This document shows positions 6,037 through 32,251 of a stretch of DNA of 64,000 nt, in pieces. Within the stretch, counting starts at the first letter, position 1. Each line of letters starts with the position of its first letter. Source of the stretch: Rhododendron vialii (taxonomy: Eukaryota > Streptophyta > Magnoliopsida > Ericales > Ericaceae). Both the position numbers and the translations under genes were made by a program. The notes below the pieces were generated by a model, which worked only from the letters and a program-made list of their open reading frames with translations, did no database searches and was not told where the DNA came from. Location: the NCBI RefSeq assembly GCF_030253575.1, contig NC_080557.1:5637001-5701000 (forward strand), in the 5' to 3' direction.

Positions 6037-6785
<749 letters not shown>

Positions 6786-7165: not shown

Positions 7166-7608
7166 AGCATCATCCATATATATATATATATATAGAAAAT
7201 CCAATAATTAGTTCGATTTAGTTGACTAGATTTTAGCAAATAATTGGTCTAAAAACGAAACGGGCAGTTGTGGTTGTGCGAGCACTGTTTGTGTTGTGTA
7301 CTAACTGTGCGCAACATGTGCGTTGTGCTATCACTTTGTACTCGAAACTTAACAATCATTTTCAAATTAATATGCACTCCCATGCTCATGCAAATTTGTT
7401 ACTCTACGTGTGTGTACTTTTTTTATACAGTGAATTCACAAAATTAATGTACCTGAAACCCCTCCGTAGACACTTTTGCTGGTCAGAACGCCCTACTTTA
7501 CCTGAATACGAAAACAATTTTGTTTTTTCGTTAATTAGAAGACTTATTTTTGAAAAAAATCTGATGCATGCACAAGTTCAAATGGGTTTGAAAAAGTTGG
7601 AGACCCAC

Positions 7609-8077
7609 GTGGATGTTTTGATCATGCTGAACCGGAAGAAACCCTTGTCCCAATCGAACTCCTACATAGAAACAAACAACACAAACATAAATTTAGGATC
7701 GAGTTCACCCATTGGTAAAAAATGCCTTTCTCAAAGCCATTTTTTTGCTTACTACAATGTGAAAAAGCTAAAAAAAAAAATAGCAATATAGCTGCACCGG
7801 TTTGGCCTCATTGGTACTGTATGAAATCACGACCTTTGAACTAAACTTATCTCATGTTTTCAATGCAAATCAAACGACGTAAATGATGTAGGAGAATTGA
7901 CACCAAAGATGGCATTGTCATTTTTCGGGATCATTGGATGGCAAGGTTGGACTTAGATTGTGATTAAAAAAAAATTGCCATATATATGACAAGGGATAGG
8001 AAAGTTGGCAAACCTTGAGCAATGCAAAAGAGTAAATGCAAAAGAAGCAGGGAGGCCACAAATAAAGAAGACCTCAT
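7609..8077 (-). pseudogene. RGF/GLV peptide gene copy A, peptide exon missing
   Basis: Exon 1 (8077-8014) encodes the signal peptide MRSSLFVASLLLLHLL-FCIAQ and ends in phase 1 before GT. Exon 2 (7661-7609) follows ATGTAG and encodes the propeptide piece VRLGQGFLPVQHDQNIH, ending before GTGGGT as in copies B and C. Exon 3, which should lie near 7190, is absent. The sequence shared with the other units stops at an AT microsatellite beside a hairpin (7135-7165). No DY...PPIHN coding sequence was found down to 6040. The locus can therefore make at most a secreted stub. The loss looks like a deletion or replacement at the edge of the array. Confidence 0.85.
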
Positions 8078-8143
8078 TGTCAATACAATTAGAAAGCAAA
8101 TTTTTGAGAGAAGATTTGTTTGGTTTGCTTCAAGTGATGAGCC

Positions 8144-8151
8144 CTTTTATG
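8144..8151 (-). promoter_or_regulatory. candidate TATA box, copy A
   Basis: CATAAAAG on the minus strand, about 70 bases upstream of the exon 1 ATG. The same motif and flanks (cttttatgcttga on the plus strand) sit at the same place in copies B, C and D. Confidence 0.6.
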
Positions 8152-8403
8152 CTTGACGCATGTGCATACGTATATGGTTTGATTTCCTTGGGCATAGCCT
8201 GAATTGTTAAGAAATCTGTATGGGTGTTTCTCATTAAATTGATTTAATCTTTATGGGTGATTTCTCTTCCCTTCCATAATTTTTCTTCCAAATTAAAAAG
8301 AAAAAAGAGAAATAGATTTTTTTCCTGGCATTTACTCCTGGAATTGCCACAATGATGCTTTGCCTTTCCGACGAATTCATGTATGATCGCATTGTTCTCA
8401 TAC

Positions 8404-9070
8404 GAGTACCTTCTCTTTTTTTTCTTTTTTCTTTTTAATCTTTAGGTCAAACAGAAGAGGATCCATTAAGCCAGACGATCAACGTCAACAAGCCAATAAA
8501 CGACATACATAGATATAGTTCAAAAAAGGCTATGAGGGAGCCCTGATCCTAGGTTCTAAGATGTCCAACACCCATGGCATCTGCCAGAGCAAACTCCATA
8601 GCTGCAAAAGAAATGGAGCTAGAGACAATCAAATCTTCTTGTTGTTGCGAGCAGGGCCGGTTCATAAGTTTTGGAGGCCAGAAGCGAACTTTTTGAATGA
8701 GATCTCCCTATATTTTCCATATAAAAGTTGGTCTGCACAAAGTTTCATTAAAAAAAAATAACCATTACAAAAGAGGGGTCTCAAGGTATGCTGTATTCAA
8801 GTATTTTTCGTCTACGGTCGTCGGTTCCCTTCCCTTCTGAGTCGTGAGGCTTATTTTGTGGTTCCTCAATTTTAATTAGGCTTATTTTGTGTAAAGGAGG
8901 TTTAGTGCAAAAAAAATTTTGGGCCATATATACATACATATATATAGGAGTCCTAGAATTTTGGGGCCTTCATTTTTAGCATTTTTGGAGGCCCGAAGCC
9001 CATGCTTCTTCCACCTATGCTATCAGTCGACCCTGGTTGCGAGCCAAGTCTGGCCAAACAGTTTGCAGTT
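8404..9070 (-). mobile_element. 5'-truncated LINE relic (RNase H end), interrupted
   Basis: Same insertion as the LINE in unit B at 14163-14584, shown by the matching 3' junction (ctcatacgagtacct) and poly-T start. The minus-strand RNase H tail (…SQQEED…) is degraded here and split by the hAT element at 8652-9035. The distal part seen in unit B after about 9070 is deleted. Confidence 0.75.
8652..9035. mobile_element. non-autonomous hAT element (384 bp)
   Basis: Ends are CAGGGCCGGTTCAT and the inverse of ...CAGTCGACCCTG. It is flanked by a perfect 8-bp target duplication gttgcgag (8644-8651 and 9036-9043). The matching uninterrupted sequence at about 14382 in unit B is the empty site. No transposase is encoded. 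Confidence 0.93.
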
Positions 9071-9110
9071 TTCTTCTTGTTGTTTACTTCTTTATTATAC
9101 GTACGTATTA

Positions 9111-9343
9111 CTTTATCTGTCCCAATTTGTTTATCCAGTACTAAGAATCCAACTTACTTACGGAGCATAATGATTAAACCTAAAAGTAATTTTCTTTTCA
9201 ATATTTATCCTTTAACTTTACTTTATTTCAAAAAAAAAGTAAAGGTAAAAAAGGAATTTTATCCCATTTAAAAGTCAATGGACAAACAAATTGGGACAAC
9301 GCAATTGGTCAAAAAGTGGACAAACAAATTGGGACGCAGGGAG
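9111..9343. mobile_element. mariner/Stowaway-type MITE (233 bp)
   Basis: Termini read CTTTATCTGTCCCAATTTGT and, inverted, CTCCCTGCGTCCCAATTTGT, with TA duplicated at 9109-9110 and 9344-9345. Unit B carries the empty site (gtacgtattatattctgg near 14730), which proves insertion after the A/B duplication. Confidence 0.92.
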
Positions 9344-9869
9344 TATATTTTTGTAAAATCGGCCTACAGGAAAGAGAAAATATTACCAAAAGTGATGGAG
9401 ATCCAAAACGTAAGGAAACTACTACTAATTAGTTCCAACTTTTCAAATGGAGCATATTTTTAATTTCACTTACAATTTCCATAAGTACGTAGCTTAATCT
9501 ATTCTTGACATAAATGAACTTCTACATTATATGGGATACATGGCCAAATTTCATTAACTAGATACTACTGAGTTGGTTGCGTGCGTCGCACGAAACCTAA
9601 CCCAATACAGAACATTTGCACAAAAAACATTTTCGTCCATCATCTTAAGTAGTAAATATACAACCTACAATCGAAAGTAAGAGATTTTGTTAGAGAGTAA
9701 TTAAGCGGCTTAGGTTGTATTTTCACCCAACTAAATGTACTAAAATGACTATAGCGCGCCCATGTTCTCACGGATTTTAGGCAGGTCAGTCTTCTCATAT
9801 ATATTAACTAAACTATCATTTAGCGGAAACAACTTGACTATTGTCATTAGTTTGTAGCCCGTTTTAGTT

Positions 9870-10115
9870 TGGCAGAAATGCATGAACCCTTTGTTAGTAC
9901 TGCACTGAGACAAGTTCATTACACTGAAATAATCCACGAAATCTTATTTGCTTTATCCCAGCACAAAATAGGTGGGTTTGACGGGTATATTCCCTTGAAT
10001 GAAGCAAACCCTAGGTCCTATATGACCACTTGGCCAACTCCTGGGCTGAAGTCACTACGGTCTTTCTTTTTTGTTTTAGCACAATGCAACTACTGGGGTC
10101 GAGATGAGGTGTAAT
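9870..10115. other. conserved block upstream of peptide gene A
   Basis: Closely matches 16436-16660 in unit B and, more weakly, 27975-28092 in unit D, about 1.8-2.6 kb upstream of exon 1. Open frames exist in A and B (MHEPFVSTALRQVHY...) but are not preserved in D, so I do not call a gene. It could be an old transposon piece or a conserved regulatory region. Confidence 0.55.
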
Positions 10116-10742
10116 ATATATTGAGAAGTGTTAACCGTCCGAATTTATGGATTTGATTCAGATTATGTAAACTAACCATTAAGGAAAAAAGAAGATATAT
10201 TTATTCCCTCTCCTTTCAACATTGTTCAATACTTCAATTAGAAGAAGCAGTAATAGCTCATAATAATATAAGTGTGTAATTCTGCATGAAACTCAAACCT
10301 AAAAAGTGCGGACAAGACTTTCCATCGATCATCAATGCTATTCAATCTATGCCTCTTATTGAGCCCATGAACATTCTTAACACTCTGCCTTGAAGTGGAC
10401 TTAGCCTCCCCGCTCTTTAGCACGAGATTTTGAGTATCGCGTGTGTACAAATATTTTTCCATCAACACATCTTCCAAGAAATTTATATTCAACCAAAATG
10501 ATAACTTCTCGGATTGGTTTGTAGGCTTGGAAGGCTTGCTTTCGTTTGATACGCTAATAAGGCTGGGGATCCTGTTGGCAAAGGAGAAAGCAGTTGACGA
10601 TCGCAAGAGGTTGGCGGAAGGAGCTCCAGTACTAGAAGGCACCAGCGAGTTCCAAGACTAGAAGGCACCAGCGAGTTCCAAGTAAAACCAGGCCCTCCCA
10701 AAGAGGCTTTGAGAGCCCCCGCGGGAAGCCAGCTTCATAAAC

Positions 10743-11312
10743 TGTTGAGACATTTTGTCTCATGTTTGATTATACACTTCGTACACACCGCGTGGTTCCA
10801 GTTCGTTAAATAAATCAACGGTTTGAAACTGTTGGAGTTGGAGCGCCTGATCAACGGTCCGATTTTAATTGAACGAATGGATGTCTTTTAAATGAATGGA
10901 TGTGTAGGAAACTAATTGTTCAATGGGTGTGATGCTTAATGAAAGGTTGTGACAACTCTCCCAGGGGATGTAATTCTTTCAAGAGATGTAATCTTTCTAA
11001 AAGGGCACATCTTTACCAAAGGGCACTGATGACTCCTATATAAATTATTTTCACCCTAACGTCAATCACTCCACTCCACATGAAAATCCATCTCTCTCAT
11101 AATAGTTGCAGTAGACAAAAGATTTCTTGGAAGTCTTTCAATTTTGTTGGTTGCAATTCTTCACCCTTAGGCTTTGTTGAATTATGGGGACGACTTTGCC
11201 TGAACCCAACAACAAACTCTATCGAGTGGGGGCAAATTACGTTCTAAAAATAATGTCTTTAGATACGGTTCAAAGCCTTCCAATCTCATCATCTTAACAT
11301 TCTGTCCCAACA
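10743..11312. mobile_element. solo LTR, LTR retrotransposon
   Basis: Begins TGTTGAGACA and ends CCCAACA, 570 bp, with a perfect 5-bp target duplication taaac on both sides (10738-10742 and 11313-11317). No internal region is present, so it is a solo LTR left by recombination. The family is probably Copia but not certain. It is absent from unit B, so it is younger than that duplication. Confidence 0.85.
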
Positions 11313-11317
11313 TAAAC

Positions 11318-12545
11318 TAAAGACAGTAGGAGGTGGCCAGCTTTAGCCGCATATTTTTTTTTTATCAATGTGGAGATCATCCTTGAAAAAGCTCAGCTTG
11401 ATCCGATAATCGTCGTCACATATTATCGTAGTCGTGTATGATCTCGCCTTCTAAACAAACACTTTGTAAATCATTAAATTTGGACAAGTGCTTGAACCCA
11501 TGGGAACCACCAACACACCCCTCTCCAGACCAAAGAGTTCTGAAATAGTCAAAAGTCACCTCGATCATATTGCTATCATCGTGGATATTTTACATCTTGG
11601 GCCTGGCTTAATAAGATTTTCATTAAAATCTCAAATTTTTGTAACCCCACCAAGGTCCAACCACCTAGAAAATGACACCTGTCAAAATATTTCTCTTCAT
11701 TTAATATTATAAACTAATAGTAATGAAATGAAGCTAATGAGGAAGAGGGATCTTTATAAAGTCGTGTATGATCGATCTTGAAAAAAACCGGAAAAGACAT
11801 TCTTTCTCATATAGACGGTTTTTTTTGTCGTCAAACATTTTCAATTTTGGTTTGCACTTTTATATTTTTTCGATTCCTCTCATCAAGAAGAAAATTATGA
11901 TATAAAAATTTGACTTAAATCTAGTAAAATTCAAAAGAAAATAACCGGAAAGATCGTGTTGAAAAGTCAAAAAATAGTTAGGTCGAAGGCCCCAAAAAAT
12001 GCTCACAAGGCCATCAGAATTCTATAATGGGGCCTGGGTTTGGGATCACTGGACCAGGGTGTGTTAGAAAGTTGGTCCAACTTTTTTATTTTTTTAGCGA
12101 AAATGACGGCAAGAACGTGTTTTGATAATTAATATCCATCAAGATAATTAATATCCGTCAAGGACATTTTCAGCATTAACAAATGTTCTCAATATGTCAT
12201 TTGCAGGTATTAATTATCAAAATAAGTTCTAGACCGTCATTTAGCCATTTTTTTTATGTTTGAATCCAACCTATGATGGATCCAAGAGCGACATGGGACT
12301 AATACATTCCTAAAAACTACACCGGACAAATTTTGAGCATTTTTCTCAGTTCAAAAACATTTTCAGAAGGTAAAATTTGTTGGCGTACAAATCTGAAGTA
12401 CAAAATGTGTTTTCCATACAAATCAAGAACAATACATTTGTGCTGCCTTTACTGCTCTTTTATTTCCATTTCCTAAATTTTTCTCCAAAAATCAATATTT
12501 TCTTCAAAAACATTTCCACCAACGGCAGTTGTTTCCAAGAGTCAA
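11318..12545. other. 3' flank of peptide gene B, shared with the other units
   Basis: No gene. The block 11488-12300 matches 17220-17870 and 22660-23450 (words such as ataggattttcatt, tttttgtaacccc, ggccccaaaaaatgctcacaa). It is part of the tandem unit and contains the 3' untranslated region of copy B near its right end. Confidence 0.7.
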
Positions 12546-13833
12546 TTAGTTGTGGATTGGAGGTGTTGCATGCGCAGGAGCGTAATCTATCACATCTACA
12601 TACGGATCCCTTTTCCCAGCCAAACTTCTTCTGCTTTTCACGTTCTCTTCAATTCCATTGTTCTCTGCTACAATATAAATATAGAAAATCCAATAATTAG
12701 TTCGATTTAGTCGACTAGATTTTAGCACATAATCTGTCTAAAAAAAACATGAGCAGTGGTTGTGCTGTGTACTACTAACTGTGCGCAACACGTGCGTTGA
12801 CACCCATTATCGGATCTATCACTTTGGACTTGAAATTCAACTTAACAATCGTTTTCAAATTAATATGCACTCCCATGCTCGTGCAAGTTTGTTACTCTAC
12901 GTGTGTGACCTTTTTTAGTTTTTATTTATTTTTATATAGTGAATATGTGTTTACAATAGGGAGGAGAGCTAACACACAAAAAAACATGAAAGAAGAAGCG
13001 ATAGTACACACACGCACAAAAATCACATTTTTTATCTTTAAAAAATATACACACACATTATTTATTTACCTACGTATATATTCTAGGCAAATTCCAATGC
13101 GGTAATTAATATGTCTATCTATGAAAAATAAAAACATTAAAAACATGAGAGGGCCAGGACTTTTGAATGATATATGGAGTATGTGACAAAATTAATATAA
13201 TGTACCTGAAACCCCTTTGCAGGCACTTTTGCCGGTCAGAACACCCACCTTTACCTGAATTCAATAACAATTTTTTTTTTGTTGTAAATTAGAAGATTTA
13301 TTATTTTAGAAAACAATCTTATGCACAAGTTCAAATGGGTTTGAAAAAGTTGGAGACCCACGTGGATGTTTTGATCATGCTGAACTGGAAGAAACCCTCG
13401 TCCCAATTGAACCCCTACATAGAAAAAACATAGCAGAAATTTAAGATCAGGTTCTCCCATTGGTAAAAAATGACTTTGTCAAAAGCCATTTTTTTCTTAC
13501 TACAATGTAAAAAAGCCCAAAAAAAAAAAAATAGCAATATAGCTGCACCGATTTGGCCACATTGGTACCATATGAAATCACGACCTTTGAACTAAACTTA
13601 TCTCATTTTTCAATGCAAATCAAACAACCCGAGTGATGTGGGAGAATTCGGCTCCAAAAATGGCATTGTCGTTTCTCGGAATCATTGAATGGCAAGGTTG
13701 GACTTAGATTGTGATTAAAATAAAATAAAAATTTGCTATATTACAAAAGGGTTATAAAAGTTGGCAAACCTTGAGCAATGCAAAAGAGTAAATGCAAAAG
13801 AAGCAGGGAGGCCACAAGTGAAGAAGACCTCAT
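12546..13833 (-). CDS. RGF/GOLVEN (CLEL) secreted peptide precursor, copy B
   Basis: Three exons: 13833-13770, 13414-13362 and 12662-12546, all with GT-AG introns of 355 and 699 bases, giving a 77-residue precursor. Residues 1-21 are a signal peptide (MRSSSLVASLLLLHLL-FCIAQ). Residues 22-39 are propeptide with FLPVQHDQNIH. The last 13 residues are DYAPAHATPPIHN, the RGF/GLV/CLEL signature: Asp-Tyr for tyrosine sulfation, Pro pair, and the HN end. R50-R-S-L53 resembles the R-x-x-L type site used by the subtilase SBT6.1 on GLV precursors. Family members are secreted, sulfated, and act through RGI receptor kinases on root meristem size and gravitropism. Intron phases are 1 and 0. A TATA-like CATAAAAG lies about 70 bases upstream. 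Splice sites are supported by conservation in units A, C and D. Expression is unknown. Confidence 0.88.
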
Positions 13834-13902
13834 TTTCAATACAATTAGAAAACAAATTTTTGAGAGGAGATTTGTTTGGTCTTCTTCAAGTAATCATGAG
13901 CC

Positions 13903-13910
13903 CTTTTATG
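13903..13910 (-). promoter_or_regulatory. candidate TATA box, copy B
   Basis: CATAAAAG on the minus strand at the position conserved in all four tandem copies, about 70 bases upstream of the start codon. Confidence 0.6.
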
Positions 13911-14162
13911 CTTGACTCATGTGCATACGTATATGGTTTGATTTCTTTGGGCATAGCCTGAATTGTTAAGAAATCTGTATGGGTAATTTCTCATTAAATT
14001 AATTTTATCTTTATGGGTAATTTCTCTTCCCTTCCATAATTTTTCTTCCAAATTAAAAAGAAAAAAGAGAGATAGATTTTTTCCTGGCATTTACCCCTGG
14101 AATTGCCACAATGATGGTTTGCCTTTCCGACGAATTCATGCATGATCGCATTGTTCTCATAC

Positions 14163-14584
14163 GAGTACCTTTTTTTTTTTCTTTGGGTTAAACGGAAGAG
14201 GATTCGTTAAGCTAGACGATCAACGTTAACAAGCCAATAAACGGCATACATAGATAGTTCAAAAAAAGGCTACGAGGGAGCGTTGATCTTAGTTCTAAGA
14301 TGTCCAACACCCATGACATCTGCCAGGGCAAATTCCCTTGTTGCAAAAGGAATGGAGCTAAAGACAATCAAATCTTCTTCTTGTTGCGAGCCAAGTCTTG
14401 CCAAACGGTTTGTAGTTTGGTTTGCCAAACGATAGATGTAAGCTATGGTTGAGTTAGTCCGGGCGTCAATTCTACAAACTTCTTCAACAATGTGGCGCTG
14501 GGGGTGGTTAGGAGGTGGTCGTTCATTACAAAAGTTCACCGCCGCACTCGAATCTAATTCAATGGTGACATTAGACATGCCCTA
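14163..14584 (-). mobile_element. 5'-truncated LINE with RNase H-like end
   Basis: Minus-strand frame 14578-14270 reads IELDSSAAVNF, then HIVEEVCRIDARTN, YRLANQTTNRLARLG and ADVMG. These are hallmarks of the RVT_3 RNase H domain at the 3' end of plant LINEs and LINE-derived genes. A poly-T run at 14169-14180 is the poly(A) tail on this strand. The insert is flanked by ttctcatac at 14154-14162 and 14585-14593. Unit C has no RNase H block here (near 20098), giving an empty site. The N-terminal half of the RNase H domain is missing, so it is not functional. Confidence 0.85.
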
Positions 14585-15032
14585 TTCTCATACCACTACT
14601 AAGCGCGCTTTCAAGACATGTCTAAAAAGACAAAAATGTACGTAAATTGACACTTCTCGTGAATGTCGAGAACAAATATCAGGGAAAATGAAAATTTTAT
14701 TTTGTTCTTGTTCTTTACTTCTTTATTATACGTACGTATTATATTCTGGTAACATCGGCCTACAGGAAAGAGAAAGTATTACCAAAAGGTAAGTAAACTA
14801 CTACTAACTAGTTCCAACTTTTCAAATGGAGCATTTTTTTAATTTCACTTAAAATTTCCATAAGTAGCTTAACCTATTCTTGACATAAATGAACTTCCAT
14901 ATTATACGGGGTACAAATATTTAGTCTAGCATCTCTTTACAGGAAAAAATACATGGCCAAATTTCATTAACTAGATACTACTGAGTTGGTTGCGTGCGTA
15001 TGCGTTGCATGAAACCTAACCCAATACAGAAC

Positions 15033-16071
15033 TGTTGGTCCAAATAGCAACTTGAGAGGGAAGAGAGAATCGAACGCAAGAATTTATAGTGGTTCGGTTC
15101 GCAACTTTACAGCCTAGTCCACTCTCCAAGTGTTCAACTCGGGATTTGCTGCACTATCTCCAATAGTTATAATCTTCTAGCTTCGCGGGTGCTAGACAAC
15201 CTTTACCACGAGCAATCTATCCCCAATCGCTCCAACTATTTTTGACTCTGGTGTTAGTCACACCTAATCCAACTAGTTTTGACTCCGGTTCTAGTAACAC
15301 CTAACTCTCAAGTGATTTTCTCTCCAAAATCACTCACAAAAAGATTTAACTCTCACAAGAGTATGAATAATGATGTACAATTCCTTTTACCATAAAGATC
15401 AAAATAAGAACTCTCTCATACAAGTGTATAGATATCAAGATGACGTGTAGTTGTATGTCTGATAGATTTTCAAGTGATGCTCACAACAATTTTCTTCAAA
15501 AGTTCTCTGTGTGTTGCTTCCTCTTGCTTCTCTTTTTATTCTTCAAAGAATATGACTGTTGGAGAATTTTTACCGTTAGACACAAAAGGCTCCTCCCTTG
15601 CCATTCTTGATTTCTTCAATCTTCCTCCATAATTGGCTTCAAATCAGAGATATATATTCCATATTCCATTTAGCCCTTTGAACCATAAAGAAAAGATTTG
15701 TCCTTAAATCTTTCCTTTTCTTATTTTAACTCTTGACAATTGGAGATGGGTTCCCTTGTTGCCTTATCTTCAAGAGCTTGAATCCATGGCTATGATGCCA
15801 GAGAAATAGCCGAACATGTCTAGGTTAGGAAGAGAAGAAAATAATCCTGTACAACAAGTACATATATAGCTTAGCCATAAGATATTTCACCAAAGCAACT
15901 TTGAATTTTAGAGGACATATTAAGTAAACCCTCCAGGATAAATATAGTGATAAGAACCAAGCCAATAATTAAAGAGCTTTGTCAGTTAATCAAAATAAAG
16001 TTAATTAAGCATGTGTTTGTTATCGTCAAAATCAACAAGGTATATATTCTATAGAAACCTTTGGGCTAACA
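15033..16071. mobile_element. solo LTR, LTR retrotransposon (1039 bp)
   Basis: Begins TGTTGGTCCA and ends GGGCTAACA, flanked by the 5-bp duplication agaac (15028-15032 and 16072-16076). Unit A has the uninterrupted site (cagaacatttgc near 9608). No internal region remains. Possibly Copia. It inserted after units A and B separated. Confidence 0.9.
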
Positions 16072-18293: not shown

Positions 18294-18532
18294 CCTAAAA
18301 ATTAAACCGGACAAATTTTGAGCATTTTTCTCAGTTCAATAACATTTTCAGAAGGCAAAATTTGTTGCCGTACAAATCTGAAGTACAAAATATGTTTCCC
18401 ATACAAAATCAAGAACAATACATTTGTGGTGCATTTACTGCTCTTATTTCCATTTCCTACCTTTTTTCTCCAAAACTCAATATATTTTCTTCAAAAACAT
18501 TTTCATCACTGGCAGTTGTTTCCAAGAGTCAA

Positions 18533-19782
18533 TTAGTTGTGGATTGGAGGTGTTGCATGCGCAGGAGCGTAATCTATCACATCTACGTATGGATCCCTTC
18601 CACCCACCAAACTTCTTCGGCTTTTCGCGTTCTCTGCAATTCCATTGTTCTCTGCTATAATATAAATATAGAAAATCCAATAATTAGTTTGATTTAGGCA
18701 ACTAGATTTTAGCACATAATCTGTCTAGAAATAACATGAGCAGTGGTTGTGCTGTGCACGACTAACTGTGCGCAACTACTAATTGTGCGCAACACGTGCG
18801 TTGTACACCCATTATCGGAACTATCACTTTGGACTTGAAATTCAACATAACAATCATTTTCAAATTAATATGCACTCCCATGCTCGTGCAAGTTTGTTAC
18901 TCTATGTGTGTGACCTTTTATTTTTATTTTTATATAGTGAATATGTGTTTACAATAGGGAGGAGAGGTAACACACAAAAAAGCAAGAAAGAAGAAGCATA
19001 GTACACACACAGCAGAAATTTAAGATAATTAATATGTCTATCTAGGAAAAATTAAAAAATTAAAAACATGAGAGCGGGGACTTTTGAATGATATATGGAG
19101 TATGTGACAAAATTAATGTAATGTACCTGAAACCCCTTCGTAGGCGCTTTTGCTGGTCAGAACACCCTCCTTTACCTGAATTCAATAACAATATTTTTTT
19201 TAATTTAGAAGATTTATTATTTTAGAAAACAATCTTGTGCACAAGTTCAAATGGGTTTGAAAAAGTTGGAGAGACCCACGTGGATGATTTGATCATTCTG
19301 AACTGGAAGAATCCCTTGTCCCAATTGAACCCCTACATAGAAACAACACAGCATAAATTTAAGATCAACTTCACCCATTGGTAACAAATGACTTTGTAAA
19401 AGCCATTTTTTTTTTTGGCTTACTAGAATGGGAAAAAGCCCAAAAAAAAAAAAAAATTAGCAATATAGTTGCACCGGTTTGGCCGGCCATATTGATACCA
19501 TATGAAATCACGACCTTTGAACTAAACTTATCTCATTGTTCAATGCAAATCAAATACCGTGATAATGATGTGGGAGAATTTGGTACCAAAGATGGCATGC
19601 ATTGTCATTTTTGGGGATCATTGAATGGCAAGGTTGGACTTAGATTGTGATAAAAAGTTAAATTTGCTACTCCATATGACTTGGGTGGACTCTAAAAGGG
19701 ATAGAAATGTTGGCAAACCTTGAGCAATGCAAAAGTGTAAATGCAAAAGAAGCAGGGAGGCCACAAGTGAAGAAGGCCTCAT
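18533..19782 (-). CDS. RGF/GOLVEN (CLEL) secreted peptide precursor, copy C
   Basis: Exons 19782-19719, 19332-19280 and 18649-18533 with introns of 386 and 630 bases. The product is 77 residues, the same architecture as copy B. The signal peptide is MRPSSLVASLLLLHLH-FCIAQ, exon 2 gives VQLGQGILPVQNDQIIH, and the C-terminus is DYAPAHATPPIHN, identical to copy B although the propeptide differs at many positions. RRSL (residues 50-53) and DPYVDVI before the peptide are kept. All splice junctions are GT-AG and aligned with B. The purely silent or propeptide-biased divergence suggests that the mature peptide is under constraint. The expected role is a sulfated peptide hormone acting through RGI-type LRR receptor kinases. 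Confidence 0.88.
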
Positions 19783-22023: not shown

Positions 22024-22659
22024 GGAATCAAAGAAACAGGACAAAATTTTGTTAAAATTTCCTCTTTCCTTCCCGTTTCTTTCTATTTTCTCTTCAATGT
22101 ACTGAATGTAGTAGCCTGAACCAGCCAAAGGACTATTTTCTTAGGGGACAATTCGCTATTCGATCACTGCAGCAGTATTCTAACCCTAGTCACATAATTC
22201 TTCAAAATGGCTTTCACTCCCACTCTAAATTCTCGATCTTCTCTCTCAATCCACTCATCGATGAACTTTAATTGTTTGAAAGGGTTTTGAAAGATGCTTT
22301 TGGGTTATCCAAGTGGCTTGGATTTGAATACACTCAGTACTACAAAATAAAGCAACCCACTGGTGTGCAACAAAACCCGTAATTAGACAATTCACTAATG
22401 TTTATCTTTTTTCTTGGAAATGCGAGTGTCCCGGACCAGTTTGCGCGCACCTCAAAATAATTCATACAGTCCCTCCCTCAGCCGTTTCGAACGCACACAT
22501 ACGCGTGGGGTAAGGTGACCCAAGCTAGTGTTGCAGGCAAAAAAAAAACAGAGGAATTTGAGACCTTAGAGCGAAGCAAACCCCTAAAATCCCATACAAC
22601 CACTTGACTAATCTCTTGAAGTAGACTTGAACCTCCACACTCTTTAGCACGAGATTTTG

Positions 22660-24038
22660 AGTATCGGATGCCAAAGAGCCAACAACACGCCCTCAGTCCA
22701 AAGAGCACTGAAATAGACAAAAGTCACCTCATATTGATATCACATCTTCAGCCTGGCTTAATAGGATTTTCATTACGATCTAAAATTTTTGTAACCCCAC
22801 CTATAGTAGCTAGGTCCAACCATCCGGAAAATGACACCTGTCAAAATATTTCTCTTGGTTTAACATAATGAACTAACAGCAAACACAACACATAACCAAT
22901 TTCTAGCCGTCTATTGCTGTAATAAATGGCCAGGATTCGCTCAAACTCTTCCCCCATAAAAGTTAACTTTTCCTTGGAAAAGTTTTTATAAAATCTAGAC
23001 CGTCCAAATACATCTGGACGGTCAGAATCACGCACACAACCAATACAACGGTTGTATAAGTAGCATTTTTGATGAAATTAAGCTAATGAGGTAGAGGGTT
23101 CTTTATAAAATCGTGTATGATCTTGCAAAAAGATCGGAACACACATTCTTCCTCTTATAGATGATCTTTTTTGGTCTTTTTTGTTGTCCGAACATTTTCA
23201 ACTTTGGTATGTACTTTTATACTTTTTCGATTCCTCTAATTCCGAAGAAAATTATGATGTAAAAATTCAACTTAAATCTGGTAAATTTAAGAGAAAATAA
23301 CCGAAAAAATCGTGTTGAAAAGTCGCAAAAGTAGTTAGGTTGAAGGCCCCAAAAAAAGCTCACAAGCCCATAAGAATTCTATAATGGGCCTGGGTTTGGG
23401 ATCATTGGACCAGGGTTGGATCCATGAGCAACGTGGGACTACTGCATTCCTAAAAATTAAACAAAAAACCTTATGCAATTTTTCAAAAAAAAAAATCATA
23501 TGCATTTTTCTTCCCAAACTACTTGGGAGATAATTTCAAAATTATATTTTTGCACCATAAATTACGAGGTTTTAATTTGCATCAATTAGGGTTCGTTATG
23601 ATTTACATCCCATAAATTATAATCACTAATATGTCTTTGAGTTTGATGCAGGAAGGTGTGTTGAAAAAGGAAAAACGTGCAACAATGACAATCACAATCA
23701 CGAACAAGCATAAATTAGAAATACTTCCTCTACAAACGCATGATAATGAGAAACATCTCAATTTTTATTAATCAAAACAAAAACAACCCCCTTCGCTAAT
23801 GGCTTCAATCTTACTCTAGAGTTAAAAAGGTTATAAAAATATTAGAAAGCAATCCTAATTCTTGTAAAAAAATGAAAACATAAAATATAGGATTCCTCAC
23901 AAAATACTAAAAAAATACTAAAACTAAAGCAGTAAATAAAATACTAATAAACTACTAATTTTTTTTTCGAAAACTCAAAAAAAATAGTAGTTTATTAGTG
24001 TTTTATGTACTGCTTTGGTTTTTGCATTTTATATTCAT
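22660..24038. other. 3' flank of peptide gene D
   Basis: Up to about 23450 it matches the 3' flank of copies B and C. From 23460 to 23920 the DNA is unique and AT-rich with no gene. It ends in the inverted repeat 23918-24020. Confidence 0.6.
23918..24020. repeat. inverted repeat beside the copy D stop codon
   Basis: aaaactaaagcagtaaataaa...actactaattttt is followed, after a short loop, by its near-complement ...aatagtagtttattagtgttttatgtactgctttggtttt. The arms are about 45 bases long. It lies within about 20 bases of the copy D stop codon, so it would fold in that mRNA's 3' untranslated region. Confidence 0.8.
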
Positions 24039-24717
24039 TTACGGATGGTGAACTGGAATTGATGAATGTTCATGAGCGTAATCTATCGTAACTTCTACAT
24101 ACGAATCCCTTTCTCCCACCAAACTTCTTCTGTTTTCCACATTTTCTTCGATTCCATTGTTCTCTGCTACAATATAAGTAAAGAAAATTCAATAATTAGT
24201 TCAATTTAGTCGACTAAATTTTAGCACATAATCGGTCTGAAAATGAAGAGAGCAGTGATTGTGCACTTGTTATTGGATCTATTGCCCTTTCAAATGAATA
24301 TATTTTCACTCTCATGCTAATGCAAATTTGTTACTCTACATGTGTGACCTTTTTTTTTTTAGTGAATTATATAGTGAATATATGTTTACACTAGGTGGGA
24401 GAGGTAACACACGAAAACGAAAAAAAGAAAGAAAAAAAGAAGCGACTGTACACGAACACAAAAAAGCTACAGTAAAAGTCGAATAGGGGATGGTGCTGTG
24501 GTGTCCGCAGCATTGTGTTGTGCATCTCTGAGCCGTCAGATCGTCCATCCAACGGCTTAGATCTTATCTCGATAATGAACAACTCTCGATCGTTAGTTGT
24601 CGAGATAAGATCCGAGCCGTCGAACGCACAATCCAACGGCTCGGAGGTGTGCACCTCACTGGATAGCACCAACCCATAGTCCGTAAAAGTCAAACTTGAA
24701 CATTAAAAAATCACTTT

Positions 24718-24755
<38 letters not shown>

Positions 24756-25129
24756 GTGCCCTTCTAATGCGGGCGCCGGCATTCAAGCAAGTTGCGGACC
24801 ACACCATTTCTTCCCTTTCCCGATTGAATTTTGATGATCCGAGCCGTTCAATGTGTTCAGAACGTGATTTTAAGAGTACCCACCAGAAATTGGAAAAAAA
24901 AAAAGACCGGGAAGGGCTTGATTTGAGCAGTTTTTATTTAAACCGTTCAATAAAAAATAAACAAAAACTGCTCAGATGAAGCCCTTTCCGGTCTTTTTTT
25001 TTGCTGATTTCACGCGAGTATCCTTAAAATCATGTTCTGAACACATTGAGCGATTCGGATCATCAAAATTCAATTGGGAAAGGCAAAGTCCGCAACTTGC
25101 TTGAATGCGGGTGCCCGCATTAGAAGGCA

Positions 25130-25166
<37 letters not shown>

Positions 25167-26766
25167 CACTCCAAAAATTGATACAGGCACTCCAAAATCA
25201 GTGTAATTCCAAAGTCATTTTCTTTTATTTTTTGGAGTGCCTGCATCAGTTTTTAGAGTGCCAATATCATTTTCCATATATATTCTAAGTGAATTTCTAT
25301 AAGGTAATTAATATCTATTTATACTATATACGTAGTACTATATTAACATAGTTACGTAAAATAAAAGGAAACTCTCTGCTTTGCTCTCTGTCCTACAAGG
25401 AATTTCCTTCAATTTTCATCTTCTTATTCATTATTCTATATTTTTACCTAAAATATATAGTTTATTTTGTTTGAAAAGAAAACTGAGTTCGATCAATAAC
25501 ATGACATATATATATATACTTTATTTTGCAAGAAAACTAAGTTTTTTTTTTTTGATTGGCAAATTTTTTTTTATTAATCAGTGAACTGAAGTTACAAAGA
25601 TTAAAAGGAAATGGGGAAAAATAGGCATTACAACTAACGACCTACATTCCCAACCAGAAAGTCTATTCACACAGACTATTAGTGTACAGATTTTGTTATG
25701 AGGCCTTTCATGGGTTCCACACAAATGATCTGAGCCGTACATTAAATGTAAAAAAAATTTTAAAAAGTTTTCGCGAAAAATCATCTTAATCCAATATGTA
25801 TAGATGTTCGATCCAATCGTCTAACTTTTAATTCAGATTTCAGAATAATGAAAAGTTAGATGATTGGATCGAGCATTGAGCTAAATTTTTCTCGGTGACG
25901 CTCGATTTTTTTTTTCATTTTATGAACGGCTCGGATTATTTGTGTGGGACCCGTGGTAGGCCCCACAACGAAATCTGTGCACAAATTATATGTGTGTGTA
26001 GCAAGGTTCCATCCCAACTATGTTGGCTTCTTTTTTTTTTTTTTTTTCTTTTTTTTAAATTGTTGTGAAAATTTTCTTATTTTTAAGCCAGAAAAGAAAA
26101 TTTCAAGAGTCACCTACTAATTCACCTGACCACACGAAAAGGTTCTCACTAATATTTTTTCAGTCATCGTTTATCGAATGGGCAAGACACTAGTGTGTAT
26201 CTATGAAAAGGAGAAAAAACTATTAAAAACCTGAGAGGGACTTTTGAATGATATATGAAGCATGTGACAAAATTAATGTACCTGAAACCTCTCCGTTGGT
26301 ACTACAGCCCTGCTGAACTGGAAGAAACCCTTGTTCCAATCGAACCCCTACATAGAAACATCACAAAAGAAATTTAAGATCCATGATATATGCATTAATC
26401 AATAGAATAAGACCTCGTTTGAAAGTTCATCCGTTGGTACAAAAATAACTTTGTCAAAGCTATTTTTGTTTGCTTACTACAATGTAAAAAAGCCAAAAAT
26501 AGCAATACAATTGTACCGGTTTGGCCATATCGGTACCATATGAAATTACGACCTCTAAACTAAACTTATCTCGTTTTTCAACACAAATCAAACGACGTGA
26601 ATGACGTGGGAGAATTTGGCACCGAAGATGACATCATTATTTTTTCGGGATCATTGAATGGCAAGGTTGAAAATTTAAAAAGGGATAGAAAATTTGGCAA
26701 ACCTTGAGCAATGCAAAAGAGTAGATGCAAAAGAAGCAGGGAGGCCACGAACGAAGAAGACCTCAT
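24039..26766 (-). CDS. RGF/GLV-like peptide precursor copy D, diverged peptide
   Basis: Exon 1 (26766-26703) gives the signal peptide MRSSSFVASLLLLHLL-FCIAQ. Exon 2 probably spans 26347-26289: it starts VRLEQGFLPVQ like the others, then runs into QGCSTNGE because about 100 bases holding the old donor site are deleted, and a GAG|GTTTCA donor restores phase 0. Exon 3 (24161-24039) reads NNGIEENVENRRSLVGERD, then YVEVTIDYAHEHSSIPVHHP. The predicted precursor is 81 residues. RRSL is kept and Asp-Tyr is kept, but the end is IPVHHP, one residue longer than PPIHN, lacking the Pro pair and final Asn. Intron 2 is 2.1 kb because of MITE insertions. This is either a new peptide variant or a decaying gene; transcripts would decide. 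Confidence 0.65.
24490..24668. mobile_element. foldback MITE-like element in intron 2 of copy D
   Basis: Ends ggtgct... and ...agcacc. Inner arms (cggcttagatcttatctcgata and its complement tatcgag-type sequence near 24597) form a long hairpin. Words such as gagccgtc and ccaacggctcgg are typical of plant foldback MITEs. No clear target duplication. Confidence 0.6.
24756..25132. mobile_element. foldback MITE with ~180-bp terminal inverted repeats
   Basis: Almost the whole element is one hairpin. cagtgcccttctaatgcggg at the left matches, inverted, ...gcattagaaggcactg at the right, and the arms continue through gaattttgatgatccga and aaagaccgg to a centre near 24950. It sits inside an AT/AC microsatellite, so the target duplication cannot be read. 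The long arms suggest a Mutator-type non-autonomous element. Confidence 0.85.
25163..25267. mobile_element. short foldback MITE (ggcactccaaaa family)
   Basis: ttggcactccaaaaattgat and its complement (atcagtttttagagtgccaa) form the arms. A related element is at 53200-53329. Confidence 0.75.
25543..25670 (-). mobile_element. probable LINE 3' tail
   Basis: A poly-T run followed by gattggcaaat...attaatcagtgaactgaagttacaaag resembles, on the minus strand, the 3' end of plant L1-type LINEs (ttgcc...poly-A). Similar ends occur at 29830 and 39760. No clear target duplication. Confidence 0.5.
25676..25990. mobile_element. foldback MITE (~315 bp)
   Basis: Left arm agtgtacagattttgttatg...ggttccacacaaatgatctg pairs with right arm cggattatttgtgtgggacc...cgaaatctgtgcac. 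The centre near 25840 is also self-complementary (cgatccaatcgtctaacttt / aaagttagatgattggatcg). No coding capacity. Confidence 0.8.
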
Positions 26767-26833
26767 TGTCTCAATACAATAGGAACACAAATTATTGAGA
26801 AAAGACTTATTTGGTTTACTTCAATTGATGATC

Positions 26834-26842
26834 CTTTTTATG
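26834..26842 (-). promoter_or_regulatory. candidate TATA box, copy D
   Basis: CATAAAAAG on the minus strand, at the position conserved in copies A-C, with one extra A. Confidence 0.5.
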
Positions 26843-27092
26843 CTTGACGCATGTTTCTTTGGGCATAACGTACGTTATTAAAGAAAGTAATAAAAAAAAT
26901 TTGACCGGTTTTGGTATCTCAATAAATTGACGAAATCTTTATGGGTGATTTCCCTTAAAAAAATAGAAATAGATTTTCCTGGCATTTTACAACCCTGTAA
27001 TTGCCACAACGAATTTTTTTTCGATAGGCTAGAAATTTTTTATTAGTAGCCTTACCGACAAATCTATACTATATACTACTAGTATTTACGAT

Positions 27093-27263
27093 GAGAATAA
27101 ATTTTTTATACTGCCAGTGTAAACATTTGTTTTCTACAAATCAATTGTATTGCGTCACATCGTCATATTTTATTAATTAGGACCACTGTTTTGACACATG
27201 TTGCAATGCAATTGATTTGGAGGAAACAAATGTTTACACCGACGTTATAAAGAATTTATTCTC
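27093..27263. mobile_element. foldback MITE (171 bp)
   Basis: gagaataaattttttata...gtaaacatttgttt at the left matches the inverse of aaacaaatgtttacac...aagaatttattctc at the right; the arms are about 65 bases. Confidence 0.8.
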
Positions 27264-27320
27264 ATTTACTATTACCTAAAATAAATGAAGCTCTCTCCTT
27301 AACTCACTTCTCATATGGGA

Positions 27321-27445
27321 TGTGGGTAGGGGGTACTATGCTTCATGGCACAGTAGAGCTCTTGCATCGGGGGAATCCAACCCTTGTGGGTAGGGGGTAC
27401 TGTGCTTCATGGCACAATAGAGCTCTTGCGTCGGGAAAATCCAAT
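27321..27445. repeat. ~63-bp tandem duplication
   Basis: gtgggtagggggtactatgc...gaatccaaccctt occurs twice in tandem, at 27321 and 27384, with a few changes. Confidence 0.85.
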
Positions 27446-27857
27446 CAAGGGTTGGATGAAAAAAGAAAATAAAAAATGATGGCCTGGTCAAAGCCCACCA
27501 ACACCCCAAGGGCCAGGCCCCAAAAAATAAACCTAGAAACCACATGGGCATGACCCAGAAAAGAACCAATACAAACTCTAAGCCCAAATCTCTTCCAATC
27601 ACCAGTAAAAGCACGCACCGCCGCCGCCACCACAACACACCTCCTCCACCATCCCAATCCACCACCAAAAACCACCTATACCCCAGCCCCTCCATCAACA
27701 CCAGCCGCCTCCACCTGCCCAAACCACCACCAGCCACTTCCACCCCAACATCACCATCGCAACCAACAGCCACCACCACCACCCACCAAACAGACGGCAA
27801 GCGAGTAATCTGATGCGGACGCGAACCCTGCAAGCTACTAGAACCCGAGAATAAATG
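27446..27857. other. C-rich insert in unit D, no recognised gene
   Basis: Interrupts the similarity of unit D to units A and B, which resumes near 27858. It is rich in CCA/CAC on the plus strand. Long frames on both strands are compositional. It may be a piece of a retroelement. Confidence 0.4.
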
Positions 27858-28351
27858 ACTAAAATGACTAAAGCCCATATTTTCATGGATTTTAGGCAAG
27901 TCATTCTCCTCATATACATCAACTAAAATAATATTTAGCGGAAAGAACTTAACTATTGCCATTAGCTTGTAGTCCATTTTAGTTTAGCAGAAATCCACCC
28001 TCCGTTAGCACTGCAATGAAATAAGTTCATTACACAGAAATAATCCACAAAATCTTGGCATTTGTTTTATTCCAGAACGAAATAGGTGGGTCTGATGCTT
28101 CCAAAACCCTTGTGTGTTCTGAATGATCTTTTCTCTGTTTAAAGAACGAAAGACGAGAAATAGGACAGGACAGGACATCTCAAACCAAAGTCACATCCAT
28201 CTAAACTAAAAGTGTTCTTGAACAAATTTTATGTTTGGCCAAATGATGAGGTACCCCTTTGCCGGTGAGTTCAGCACGTACAATTATTAACTTAAAATTG
28301 TCTTTGCTAATTTTCCAATGATTTTTAGCCAAAAATGTTTCAAGGCAAAAT

Positions 28352-28712
28352 TAGGGGTGGGCATCGTGTTATGTCATCTCATCTTCGTGTCAGAATTCTC
28401 TCAGCCCTAACCCGACCTGTTTAACTTTTCGTGTTATCGTATCGTGTCATATTCGTATTCCATATCAGAAATATGCCGACCCCAACTCCGCTAATTTCGG
28501 GTCGTGTTATCGTGTCCTTTCATAAATTCTCTTATCGCGTCATCTCGTGTTTGTATCAAAATTCTCTCAACCCTAACCCAACCTGTTTACGTTTTCGTGT
28601 TATCATCTCGTGTCATATTCGTATTCTATGTCAAAAATAGCTGACACTAATCCGCTAACTTCATGTCTGAATCATGTCGTATTGTCGTGTAGCGTCAAAA
28701 ATTCCCACCCTT
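28352..28712. mobile_element. hAT-like non-autonomous element (cgtgttatcgtgtc-rich)
   Basis: Begins TAGGGGTGGGCA and ends with the near-inverse CCCACCCTT. The interior is filled with cgtgtt/atcgtgtcat words. Flanks ggcaaaat and gctacaat agree at 5 of 8 positions, so the target duplication is only suggestive. Confidence 0.6.
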
Positions 28713-28959
28713 GCTACAATACCATCGATGCACATTGAATACCCTTAATTCACGGTCCACCACATTCCTAGCTTATTGGGCCACTGCACATTTGACCCAA
28801 CAGAAGACATGTGAGCCCACATCCGATAGTTACTACAGACTCATAAATCATGTAAACGATAATTGAGACATGGTGGGCCAATTCGATATGCTCTGGTGGG
28901 CCACTTCATGAAAGTTGCAGAAAATAACAAACAAAAAAAAGGCCTTGCCAATGTAATGC

Positions 28960-29106
28960 GGAGCCCGCAGAAACGTAAATCGGGCGACAGCCAAGTAGTA
29001 GGCGCTCTATACTCTTTGCTCCAGACGAGGGTTCAAACCCCGTCGGGTCCCTCCCTTGCCCCAAAAGTAGTAGTATACACACTTGCTTTAACAGGGAAAA
29101 AATAAA
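28960..29106 (+). mobile_element. tRNA-derived SINE
   Basis: A-box-like acagccaagtagtagg and B-box ggttcaaacccc lie about 40 bases apart, followed by an A-rich tail. Perfect 10-bp target duplication aatgtaatgc at 28950-28959 and 29107-29116. No tRNA cloverleaf is complete, so it is not a tRNA gene. Confidence 0.88.
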
Positions 29107-29829
29107 AATGTAATGCAGCCCACCTAATTCATTGATTATAAAGGTCTTTGTAGTTTCAGATCATGTGCAATTTTCATAAATATTTTATGGTTCCCAACTT
29201 AGATAATGATGTGGAATTTTTTTGGGACAGTGGGCATTTGTCGCCTCTCATTTTTGCTAACAATTAATTTGTACTTGTATGTTCAATCAAACTCTTACGG
29301 TCATGGACTGTCATTTCATGTGATACTTGCTACAACTATTGGCCTATTTGCTAGGTAGGATTTTAATTAGTTTAACAGTAACAAAGATATGATAGTATTT
29401 TATTTTAGTTTTTTTTTTTGGGCTACACTAGCTGCACTAGATATGAGTGGAATAGTATCGAAAATGAAGAAGAAAAATCAAATTATGCAATCGTATAATC
29501 GTGTATTTTTCGAACCCAAATGGTTAATTTGCTTGAATTCTCTGAAATGATAGTGCAACCGCCTCTACTTGATCGATGGAGTTTGAAAGTTTTTTAACGT
29601 GGAAGCAAAAAGCTAAATGTCAACACATATATATCCAGCGTAATTATTTTCATAATTCTCTCCCTAATGAACCTATTTTCATTCTCGATGTACCTTTTAT
29701 CTAGTTTTTATAAAAAAAAAATTCTGATAAAAAAAAGAAAAAAAAGAAGAGGCCCAAGCTAACGAAGAGATATTGAGAGTGCACTAAACACACTTAGTAC
29801 TTGCCAAAAAGGAAGCATTAACATATGTT

Positions 29830-30005
29830 TTTTTCGAAAGGCAAATTTTTTTTATTAATTTCTGAAATTGATACAAAGATTAATAGAAGCAAGGAATGAA
29901 GACATCAAATCCTTAGCCCGAGATCTAAGTGATCTACAACACTAAGAGTAATCCTATGCCTGTCCGAGACCCAGTTCCCAAGTTTGGCAAGAAACCAAAC
30001 ACGGG
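29830..30005 (-). mobile_element. 5'-truncated L1-type LINE end
   Basis: On the minus strand it ends ...attaataaaaaaaatttgcc and an A-tail, as plant L1 elements do. Flanked by aacatatgtt at 29820-29829 and 30006-30015. Confidence 0.85.
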
Positions 30006-30314
30006 AACATATGTTATTATGATACTTTGCATGTAACAACAACATCATATAGGTTACAAGGTATATATAGTGATTAATAAAGCCCAGTAAGCACTCCTTA
30101 GTGCTTAATTATGACTTAATCATGAAATAATATATATATAATCTAACAATAATTGTACAATAGACTACTAATGTACAAAATATATCTAACCCTAAAAAAA
30201 CTGCAGCTTTTCTGTAATGCTGTCCATCTTATATCCCCATCAATATTCATCTTTCCTAAGCCTCGATCTCTATACTTTATTTTCTTCATGTTTCCTTCCC
30301 TTCCCAAAAATACT

Positions 30315-30889
30315 TCAGTTGTGTATTGGAGGCTTTCTCCTTGCTGGAGAATAATCCATCTCATCTATGTTTAAAGTGTCCGGATACCGTTCATGGGTCG
30401 CCTCCCGGTGATTGGAATCCGGCGATGAGTCAACGGAAAAACTTTCGTGTTTTCCTCCAATTTCGTCGGTACTCGATTTGCCTCCATTCGTTTCATTCTG
30501 TATACATAAAGAATAGAGTCATATAAAGGAAGTGGGGATCGTAGTACTGGGACACACGGATTTTTTGTATCCAAATATCTGTGTCTTTCTGTTCCGATGC
30601 ATTGGTAGTCACACATTTCAGATCGAACTCGCGAACTTGAAATGTAGCTATATGATTCTCAATGCATTTAGACAGAAGGACAATAGTATTTGAGAACATA
30701 AGATCTCGTCCCTAGAAATGCATGCAAGTTGGCTTAAGACATCCTGTATTACCCACAAATGATCTCATCTCTATAGTGGTGATCATGTGGGGTCCTAGTA
30801 GTGTAGCTTTATCTTTTATGGAAAACCAACCTTGGAAATGGTGGTGGGATTAGTAGACGTTGCCTTGGCAATAAGTTTTCTATTTTTTC
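30315..30889 (-). CDS. RGF/GOLVEN peptide cassette E (GLV1/2 type), own first exon not found
   Basis: Exon 3-like block 30497-30315 follows TATACAG. It reads NETNGGKSSTDEIGGKHES..., then ...YPDTLNIDEM and DYSPARRKPPIHN-stop, a textbook RGF/GLV/CLEL motif with Asp-Tyr and PPIHN. An upstream exon 30889-30831 (TTGCAG acceptor, AAG|GTTGG donor) starts with two bases and ends in phase 0. It encodes KNRKLIAKATSTNPTTISK, fitting the exon 2 position of the other genes. The frame is open with no damage. I searched 30890-31300 on the minus strand and found no signal-peptide exon. The next upstream first exon is that of gene F (32251-32191), which also ends in phase 1 and would join as Gly. So E may be an alternative 3' cassette of gene F, or may have lost its start. 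Joined to that exon, the precursor would be 100 residues. Confidence 0.75.
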
Positions 30890-31060
30890 CTGCAATAGTA
30901 GAAAAAAAAGCCCATTTAACACATGATATGAAATTCCTATCACATGTTTCTTGAATTAACTTCTATTTGGAAGACGGAAAAGGAAATTCAAACTTCGGCA
31001 TCCTACTAATATTCATGTTAGTTAAGACGATACAAAATTGCCTTGTCAAAACACATGGTC

Positions 31061-31200
31061 GTGGGCTTAGCCCTGCTGGTCGTGCAACCTCCTTTTAAAG
31101 GAAGATTTTAGGTTCGATTCCAATGGACAAGATATCACCCTTAGTTGTAACTCTAAACATCCATTAATATGTTAATGCTATCTCTGGGGGAAAAAAAATT
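31061..31200 (+). mobile_element. tRNA-derived SINE between cassettes E and F
   Basis: A-box-like gtgggcttagccctgctgg and B-box ggttcgattcc, then an A-run. Flanked by acatggtc at 31053-31060 and 31201-31208. It lies between the E exon 2 and the F stop codon. Confidence 0.85.
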
Positions 31201-31266
31201 ACATGGTCATGGCTTTAAGTGTTTTGAAGCTCAATTGGGGCTCTTCTAAGGAAAACTAAATGGTCA

Positions 31267-31270
<4 letters not shown>

Positions 31271-31300
<30 letters not shown>
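31271..31300. repeat. (AG)15 microsatellite, 3' of gene F
   Basis: A pure AG run ending four bases 3' of the gene F stop codon, so it would be the start of that mRNA's 3' untranslated region (CT on the sense strand). Confidence 0.95.
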
Positions 31301-31303
<3 letters not shown>

Positions 31304-31304
<1 letters not shown>

Positions 31305-32251
31305 TAATGGTGCTTGGGGTTGTGAGTCCTAGGTCCATAGTAGTCTTCATGAATTGTTGGTAACAAGTGGTGGGTTTCCTTGGTTATCCTTGAATTTCTT
31401 CTCCTCATTGTACCTGATGAACATTGCCCTTTTTTGCATTGAATATCCTCCCCATCAATAGCTCCATTACTTGCTTTATTCACAGTTCTACCCTCCTGCA
31501 CATTAACAAACACATATCACCATCAATAGAATCGTGAACTTTACAGCCATATGTCTGCCGATACGTACTAAGTTGGATACAAAGATGGGATCAGGGGGGT
31601 CTAGTAGCGGCGACCGCCACGACAAGAATTTTAAAAAATGCAATTATTATATGTAAAAAAAAAATTTATGCCCAACTTATATAGTTTCGCCACCACTAAA
31701 TTTTTTTAGTATATATTTTGCCACTGCTAGGGTAAAATCCTGGTTCCGTCCTTGGTTGGATAATCATTGATCTGTCTTTAAATATTACTGTAGAAGATCA
31801 AAAGAAAACCCACTATGTGTTCGGCAATATTTGTAACACTAATTAAAAATAAGTGGTAGATACCCATTATATTCAAAACAAAGCTTATAATATCAGAGAC
31901 CAAAAAAAAACAACCTGGAGTTTCTTTATTTTGATCAACAAAGAAATATTTCCCATACTATTAAAAATGATACAAAAGAGAAATCTTGGAGAGAAAACCA
32001 ACCTGGATTTTATGATCCTTAACTGGTAGAAACTCTTTCTTGAGGCGTATAGCTGAAAAATAGCAAGGGAAAATCAGTACCCAACAACAACAACAACAAC
32101 AACAACAACAAAAAGAGAGGAAAAAGTAATGCCCAAAGTGAACAAGTACATAGGTTCATGAGAGAGATATTCATATGGTACTGGGCATACCTTGGACCTC
32201 AGAAATGATAGTGGACAGAAGTAAAACTGACAGTAGAAAATAAGGCTTCAT
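31304..32251 (-). CDS. ROOT MERISTEM GROWTH FACTOR (RGF1-3 type) peptide precursor F
   Basis: Exons 32251-32191, 32052-32003 and 31495-31304 with GT-AG introns of 138 and 507 bases, giving 100 residues. Residues 1-20 form a signal peptide (MKPYFLLSVLLLSTIISEVQ). Exon 2 gives IRLKKEFLPVKDHKIQ, similar to FLPVQHDQNIH of copies A-C. Exon 3 is basic and polar (TMRRRNSRITKETHH), and the last 13 residues are DYYGPRTHNPKHH. Position by position this fits RGF1-3 peptides (D-Y-x-x-P-x-x-H-x-P-K/R): Asp-Tyr for sulfation, Pro at 5 and 10, His at 8, but the usual terminal Asn is His. Intron phases 1 and 0 are the same as in the tandem copies, so the cluster shares one ancestor. The start is the first ATG after a TATA-rich stretch near 32420. 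The role is inferred: secreted root growth peptide perceived by RGI receptors. Confidence 0.85.
31589..31757. mobile_element. possible short non-autonomous element in intron 2 of gene F
   Basis: Starts caggggggtctagtagcgg and ends ...cctggttccgtccttg, whose inverse (caaggacggaaccagg) resembles the start. AT-rich interior. No target duplication seen. Confidence 0.4.
32083..32112. repeat. (CAA)n microsatellite in intron 1 of gene F
   Basis: About ten CAA trinucleotides; on the sense strand this is a (TTG)n tract inside the 138-base intron. Confidence 0.9.

Follow-up and report, generated by a model that had tools for sequence, protein, structure and literature searches.

How many hormone genes does a dense cluster of peptide-coding exons contain, which of them are complete, and can one gene encode two hormones? 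These questions are raised by a stretch of 64,000 nucleotides in the genome of Rhododendron vialii (C1:5637001-5701000, contig C1 being NC_080557.1; hereafter, the window), in which an earlier note, made from the letters alone, had recognized six loci, A to F, for peptides of the RGF/GOLVEN type, four of them (A-D) in a tandem array. The window was analyzed together with the genome assembly to which it belongs (one assembly, 532.6 Mb, 13 contigs). It very likely holds a real local cluster of secreted RGF/GLV/CLEL hormone genes, consisting of the tandem units A-D, of which A is broken, plus F/E. Whether F and E are two genes or parts of one is a further question, for which we tentatively offer an answer below.

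Like known RGF/GLV/CLEL precursors, those predicted here combine a signal peptide, a variable middle region and a 13-residue C-terminal peptide with Asp-Tyr, situated at or near the stop codon; Arabidopsis members of the family include RGF6 (DYPQPHRKPPIHN) and RGF10 (DYMQPTTHPPHHN; excerpts of PMC11534595). The five peptides named in the earlier note all lie where it had placed them, on the minus strand and in an open frame up to a stop (B, 12558-12587; C, 18545-18574; D, 24060-24083; E, 30327-30356; F, 31319-31345). A C-terminal Asp-Tyr peptide of about 13 residues with a conserved Pro is found in B, C, E, F and an outlying exon of A, and D has an extra residue. An N-terminal signal peptide, judged by hydropathy (B, D, F) or near identity (A, C) and not by a dedicated predictor, is encoded in A, B, C, D and F, but not in E alone. 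When four precursors (B, D, E and F) were compared with the Pfam family GLV1-2 (PF21529, cut-off 28.1 bits), which, going by its name, covers GLV1/2-like members, E exceeded the cut-off, with 37.4 bits when F exon 1 was added and 35.5 bits for its exon 3 alone, and B remained below it (22.1 bits). By our own count, the F peptide is identical at 8 of 13 positions to DYYGASVHEPRHH, the RGF domain of four monocot proteins (excerpts of PMC8708909). The score of E and this likeness of F support the membership in the RGF/GLV/CLEL family that had been claimed.

F might instead be a peptide of the PSY type (DY..P..NPKH), as DYYGPRTHNPKHH has DY, P and PKH in common with PSY9 (DYPEPGPDPKHDP; excerpts of PMC11534595). 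This is very unlikely: on the published parts compared, F is closer to the RGF domain than to PSY, it carries His at position 8, a mark of Group H of the family, and ends at the stop, and its phase-1 signal exon and FLPV exon are like those of A-D. In a comparison by eye, moreover, the PSY motif DY..P..NPxHDP does not fit, as F reads HNPKHH and then stops.

Units A-D are tandem duplicates on the minus strand, about 5.5-6 kb apart, whose matched blocks have 77-90% DNA identity in a self-comparison of the window. Throughout A-D, exon 1 encodes a near-identical signal peptide of the type MRSSxxVASLLLLHLLFCIAQ, found by motif in A, B and D and, with changes, by alignment in C. FLPVQ is present in A, B and D and is replaced by ILPVQ in C. 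The predicted peptide DYAPAHATPPIHN is identical in B and C. The unit that was duplicated in tandem to give the four copies measures about 6 kb and comprises a signal-peptide exon, one or more FLPVQ exons and a terminal peptide exon; B and C have kept the same predicted peptide, and D has diverged. The proposed local expansion, by tandem duplication, and divergence of the peptide are borne out, with D and F as the most divergent members, and have to be qualified for A, which is probably dead, and for E, which looks incomplete.

Introns are usual in the RGF family (excerpts of PMC8708909), and three tiny exons had been attributed to every gene here. Exon number turned out to vary (Table 1). F and D fit three exons; a four-exon model with consistent phases is the best for B and C (64, 53, 49 and 119 bp in B), the middle pair of which is fused in D; and only two exons belong to E itself. 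The four-exon model of B is preferred to a three-exon one because the donor required by the latter scores -5.2, versus 1.7 for the donor used in the former. A TAGCAG double acceptor precedes the terminal exons of B, C and D (12665-12670, 18652-18657 and 24164-24169), and TAACAG occurs at the outlying exon of A.

Unit A had been thought to lack a terminal D-Y exon. This exon exists outside the window, beyond an insertion of 21.9 kb: when the B precursor was searched against the genome, the exon was located at C1:5622116-5622232, where it encodes DYTPAHAKPPIHH. The stop, at C1:5622113, is some 14.9 kb beyond the left edge of the window, and the exon is about 22 kb from the rest of A. Its 3′ flank matches the 3′ flanks of B, C and D. 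The insertion (C1:5622243-5644190) has inverted ends of 127 bp, 83% identical, placed where the homology of A stops and where the outlying exon begins, and codes for a protein in which FAR1 and MULE transposase domains are recognized (window 2088-3608, minus strand). The inverted ends, the transposase and the shared 3′ flank mark A as a fourth complete unit that a Mutator-like insertion has interrupted. Under the exon model used, it is probably dead, because modelled exon 3 has an in-frame stop and the insertion splits the unit. The cluster extends about 15 kb past the left edge of the window. A SWIM zinc finger is also encoded within the insertion (window 1254-2084, minus strand).

Of the 19 matches that the B, F and E precursors produced in genome-wide searches, 17 are in this cluster, more than chance would give, and the other two are weak (E-values of 1.2 and 2.98). 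The genome has at least 13 RGF-type peptides, a lower bound in that the peptide searches scored the best candidates only: six here, two at one locus on contig C3, one each on C8, C9, C12 and C7, and one unread match at C1:21825290. Six of these at least 13 peptides (the outlying exon of A, B, C, D, E and F) sit within about 46 kb. Excerpts of PMC8708909 mention RGF tandem pairs in Arabidopsis, poplar, Medicago and soybean, whereas here four tandem copies plus F/E occupy one locus; it is plausible that so dense a cluster is unusual, as had been suggested.

The terminal exons of B and C differ with a proportion of nonsynonymous differences (pN) of 0.055 versus a proportion of synonymous differences (pS) of 0.195; constraint on the tandem duplicates is nevertheless weak or absent, and several results weigh against a real cluster of hormone genes. 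The ratio pN/pS is about 1 between the terminal exon of D and the outlying exon of A, and the exons shared by B and C are no more conserved than the introns (0.916 for exon 4, 0.918 for introns). The GLV1-2 search gave no match for D or F; D matches no Pfam family, and F has only a sub-threshold match to the unrelated FXR_C3. The small extra exon needed in B and C has modest splice scores, all splice scores being from simple self-written matrices based on general knowledge, without training on this genome. A scan for TATA-like sites upstream of B and D found none.

Is E a gene in its own right? It lacks a convincing signal-peptide exon and, taken alone, looks incomplete as a gene, so that a count of six complete cassettes is too high; the window may contain five genes, including the broken A. 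The standard for this judgment was set by five predicted signal exons (units B, D and F, and loci on C3 and C8), with hydropathy 2.55-3.28 and donor scores of 2.18-5.77; for a signal exon of hydropathy 2.5 and donor score 2, the background rate is about 0.04 per kb. From the F stop to E exon 3, only one poor candidate was found (hydropathy 1.44, donor -0.17), and in 30880-40000 F exon 1 alone passes the thresholds for both hydropathy and phase-1 donor.

These scans make it unlikely that E is a separate gene with an unrecognized signal-peptide exon, for example one far upstream or unusual in sequence, the low background rate also arguing against it. Such an exon could nevertheless be sought among 53 hydrophobic ATG frames in 30880-64000 (donors scored up to 40000), several of which are more hydrophobic than F exon 1; two of these, starting at 32174 and 32159 in the first intron of F, have phase-1 GT sites. 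Moreover, the second RGF-type peptide of the C3 locus has its own clear signal exon, so adjacent RGF genes can each be complete.

Alternatively, E could be a dead remnant: deprived of its promoter and signal-peptide exon, it would yield no secreted peptide. Besides a convincing signal exon, a TATA-like site is missing from the 415 bp scanned between the F stop and E exon 2, and in the gap between F and E a segment of 138 bp is 72% identical to part of contig C6, so that foreign DNA may have entered. A TATA-like site does lie upstream of F, but this sign is weak because the same scan was negative upstream of B and D. A remnant is somewhat unlikely in view of the two E exons, which keep an open frame across 242 bp and have splice sites that score (exon 2 acceptor 6.8 and donor 3.6; exon 3 acceptor 2.5), and of the Pfam score of E, which passes the cut-off. 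E exon 2 is the sole phase-1-to-0 exon over thresholds in the gap, and its start, GKNRK, is similar to those of the peptide-carrying exons on C9 (GKQHRK) and C12 (GKHHKK), which are also in phase 1.

There is a third way to account for E. F exon 1 can be joined in frame to the exons of E as well as to those of F, the open joins being F1-F2-F3, F1-E2-E3, F1-F2-F3short-E2-E3 and F1-F2-E3. On these grounds F and E may possibly form one gene for two RGF hormones, one of Group H and one of Group R, with one signal exon spliced to alternative 3′ exons. As the scans gave E no convincing signal exon, a shared exon 1 would be the simplest route to a secreted E, and its splicing to the E exons in place of F exons 2-3 the likeliest single way.

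Such an arrangement has a precedent. In conifer CLEL genes, a common 5′ exon or exons are combined with a choice of 3′ exons coding for different CLEL peptides (Strabala, 2014, PMC4016512, in excerpts). F exon 1, from which two peptide-coding 3′ exon sets can be reached in frame, shows one feature of a gene of the spruce type, and the AG/GT donor inside the first terminal exon of spruce CLEL has its counterpart in F exon 3 (CAG/GTACAA). The spruce splicing has at least partial support from expressed sequence tags, whereas F/E as one gene is predicted from the genome sequence. In the same excerpts, the authors knew of no such genes in other plants, and Arabidopsis CLEL splicing leaves the peptide unchanged. 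Gymnosperm pairs of Group H and Group R peptides (Furumizu and Sawa, 2021, PMC8329595, in excerpts) are mostly transcriptome sequences with a similar N-terminus; the sharing proposed for F/E comes from the genome. By the excerpted rules of PMC8329595, F, with His at 8, is of Group H and E, with Arg-Lys at 7-8, of Group R; B and C match neither exactly. In the accessible parts of the open-licence literature, no case of a two-peptide CLEL gene was found in angiosperms, the reports being limited to gymnosperms.

Two loci elsewhere in the genome weaken the idea that F and E are one gene. At the C3 locus (C3:26567431-26570605), the RGF-type peptides DYSRPSTHPPSHN and DYEPAHMNIPTHN are separated by 2 kb, and each has a candidate signal exon to itself. 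It was rejected as a second dual gene: a strong signal exon lies directly before the second peptide (hydropathy 3.51, donor 4.13), and in the dual-gene model the 59-bp middle exon, of the same length as E exon 2, has an acceptor of -0.56 and the internal donor scores 0.25. The locus most likely consists of two ordinary adjacent genes and, since its second peptide has a clear signal exon of its own, lends no support to the F/E idea. A comparison of the C1 region (124 kb) with the C3 region (108 kb) gave mostly short repeat-like matches, with no shared gene order seen. The 3.0 kb downstream of the precursor on C7 (C7:3239268-3239460) show no further peptide motif. This precursor is a third one of H type (DYAPPRTHPPVHN), with TCAG/GT at the same Ser-Gly place as F and the C3 locus.

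Table 1. Predicted exons of units A-F and the insertion in A (window positions)
Feature	Position	Strand	Basis
Right-hand part of the 21.9-kb insertion splitting A	1..7190	.	inverted end repeat at 7066-7193
A exon 1, signal peptide MRSSLFVASLLLLHLLFCIAQ	8014..8077	-	motif
A exon 2, GVRLGQGFLPVQ...	7609..7661	-	motif + model
A exon 3 (model), with in-frame stop	7453..7501	-	
B exon 1, signal peptide MRSSSLVASLLLLHLLFCIAQ	13770..13833	-	exon model
B exon 2, GVQLGRGFLPVQHDQNIH	13362..13414	-	exon model
B exon 3 (model)	13206..13254	-	
B terminal exon, DYAPAHATPPIHN	12546..12664	-	exon model
C exon 1, signal peptide MRPSSLVASLLLLHLHFCIAQ	19719..19782	-	alignment
C exon 2, GVQLGQGILPVQ...	19280..19332	-	motif + model
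C exon 3 (model)	19127..19175	-	
C terminal exon, DYAPAHATPPIHN	18533..18651	-	peptide + model
D exon 1, signal peptide MRSSSFVASLLLLHLLFCIAQ	26703..26766	-	motif
D exon 2, GVRLEQGFLPVQQGCSTNGEVS	26282..26347	-	
D terminal exon, diverged peptide DYAHEHSSIPVHHP	24039..24163	-	
F exon 1, signal peptide MKPYFLLSVLLLSTIISEVQ, 61 bp, phase-1 donor (score 4.9); candidate shared first exon of F and E	32191..32251	-	
F exon 2, (A)IRLKKEFLPVKDHKIQ, 50 bp, phase 1 to 0	32003..32052	-	
F exon 3, ends DYYGPRTHNPKHH + stop; internal CAG/GTACAA donor after 31414 (score 3.0)	31304..31495	-	
E exon 2, GKNRKLIAKATSTNPTTISK, 59 bp, phase 1 to 0	30831..30889	-	
E exon 3, 183 bp, ends DYSPARRKPPIHN + stop	30315..30497	-	

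Other features of the window include two long imperfect palindromes seen in the self-comparison, perhaps miniature transposons, at 24723-25163 (455 bp), in the last intron of D, and at 36761-37348 (594 bp). Neighboring coding frames on the minus strand are those of a DUF247 protein (56020-57621) and a leucine-rich-repeat protein (63077-64000), the latter cut by the window edge.

Going by what is typical of the family, entry of the precursors into the secretory pathway would be followed by sulfation of the tyrosine at Asp-Tyr and cleavage by subtilases, and the peptides would be sensed by RGI receptor kinases. The tandem array shows expansion and decay of a peptide hormone family within one lineage. 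If F and E are one gene, one promoter would serve both and splicing would choose between two hormone types, and the two-hormone CLEL arrangement reported for conifers and other gymnosperms would extend to angiosperms. How common H/R pairs are within and outside gymnosperms is a question posed by Furumizu and Sawa (excerpts of PMC8329595), and with F/E as one gene it would become testable.

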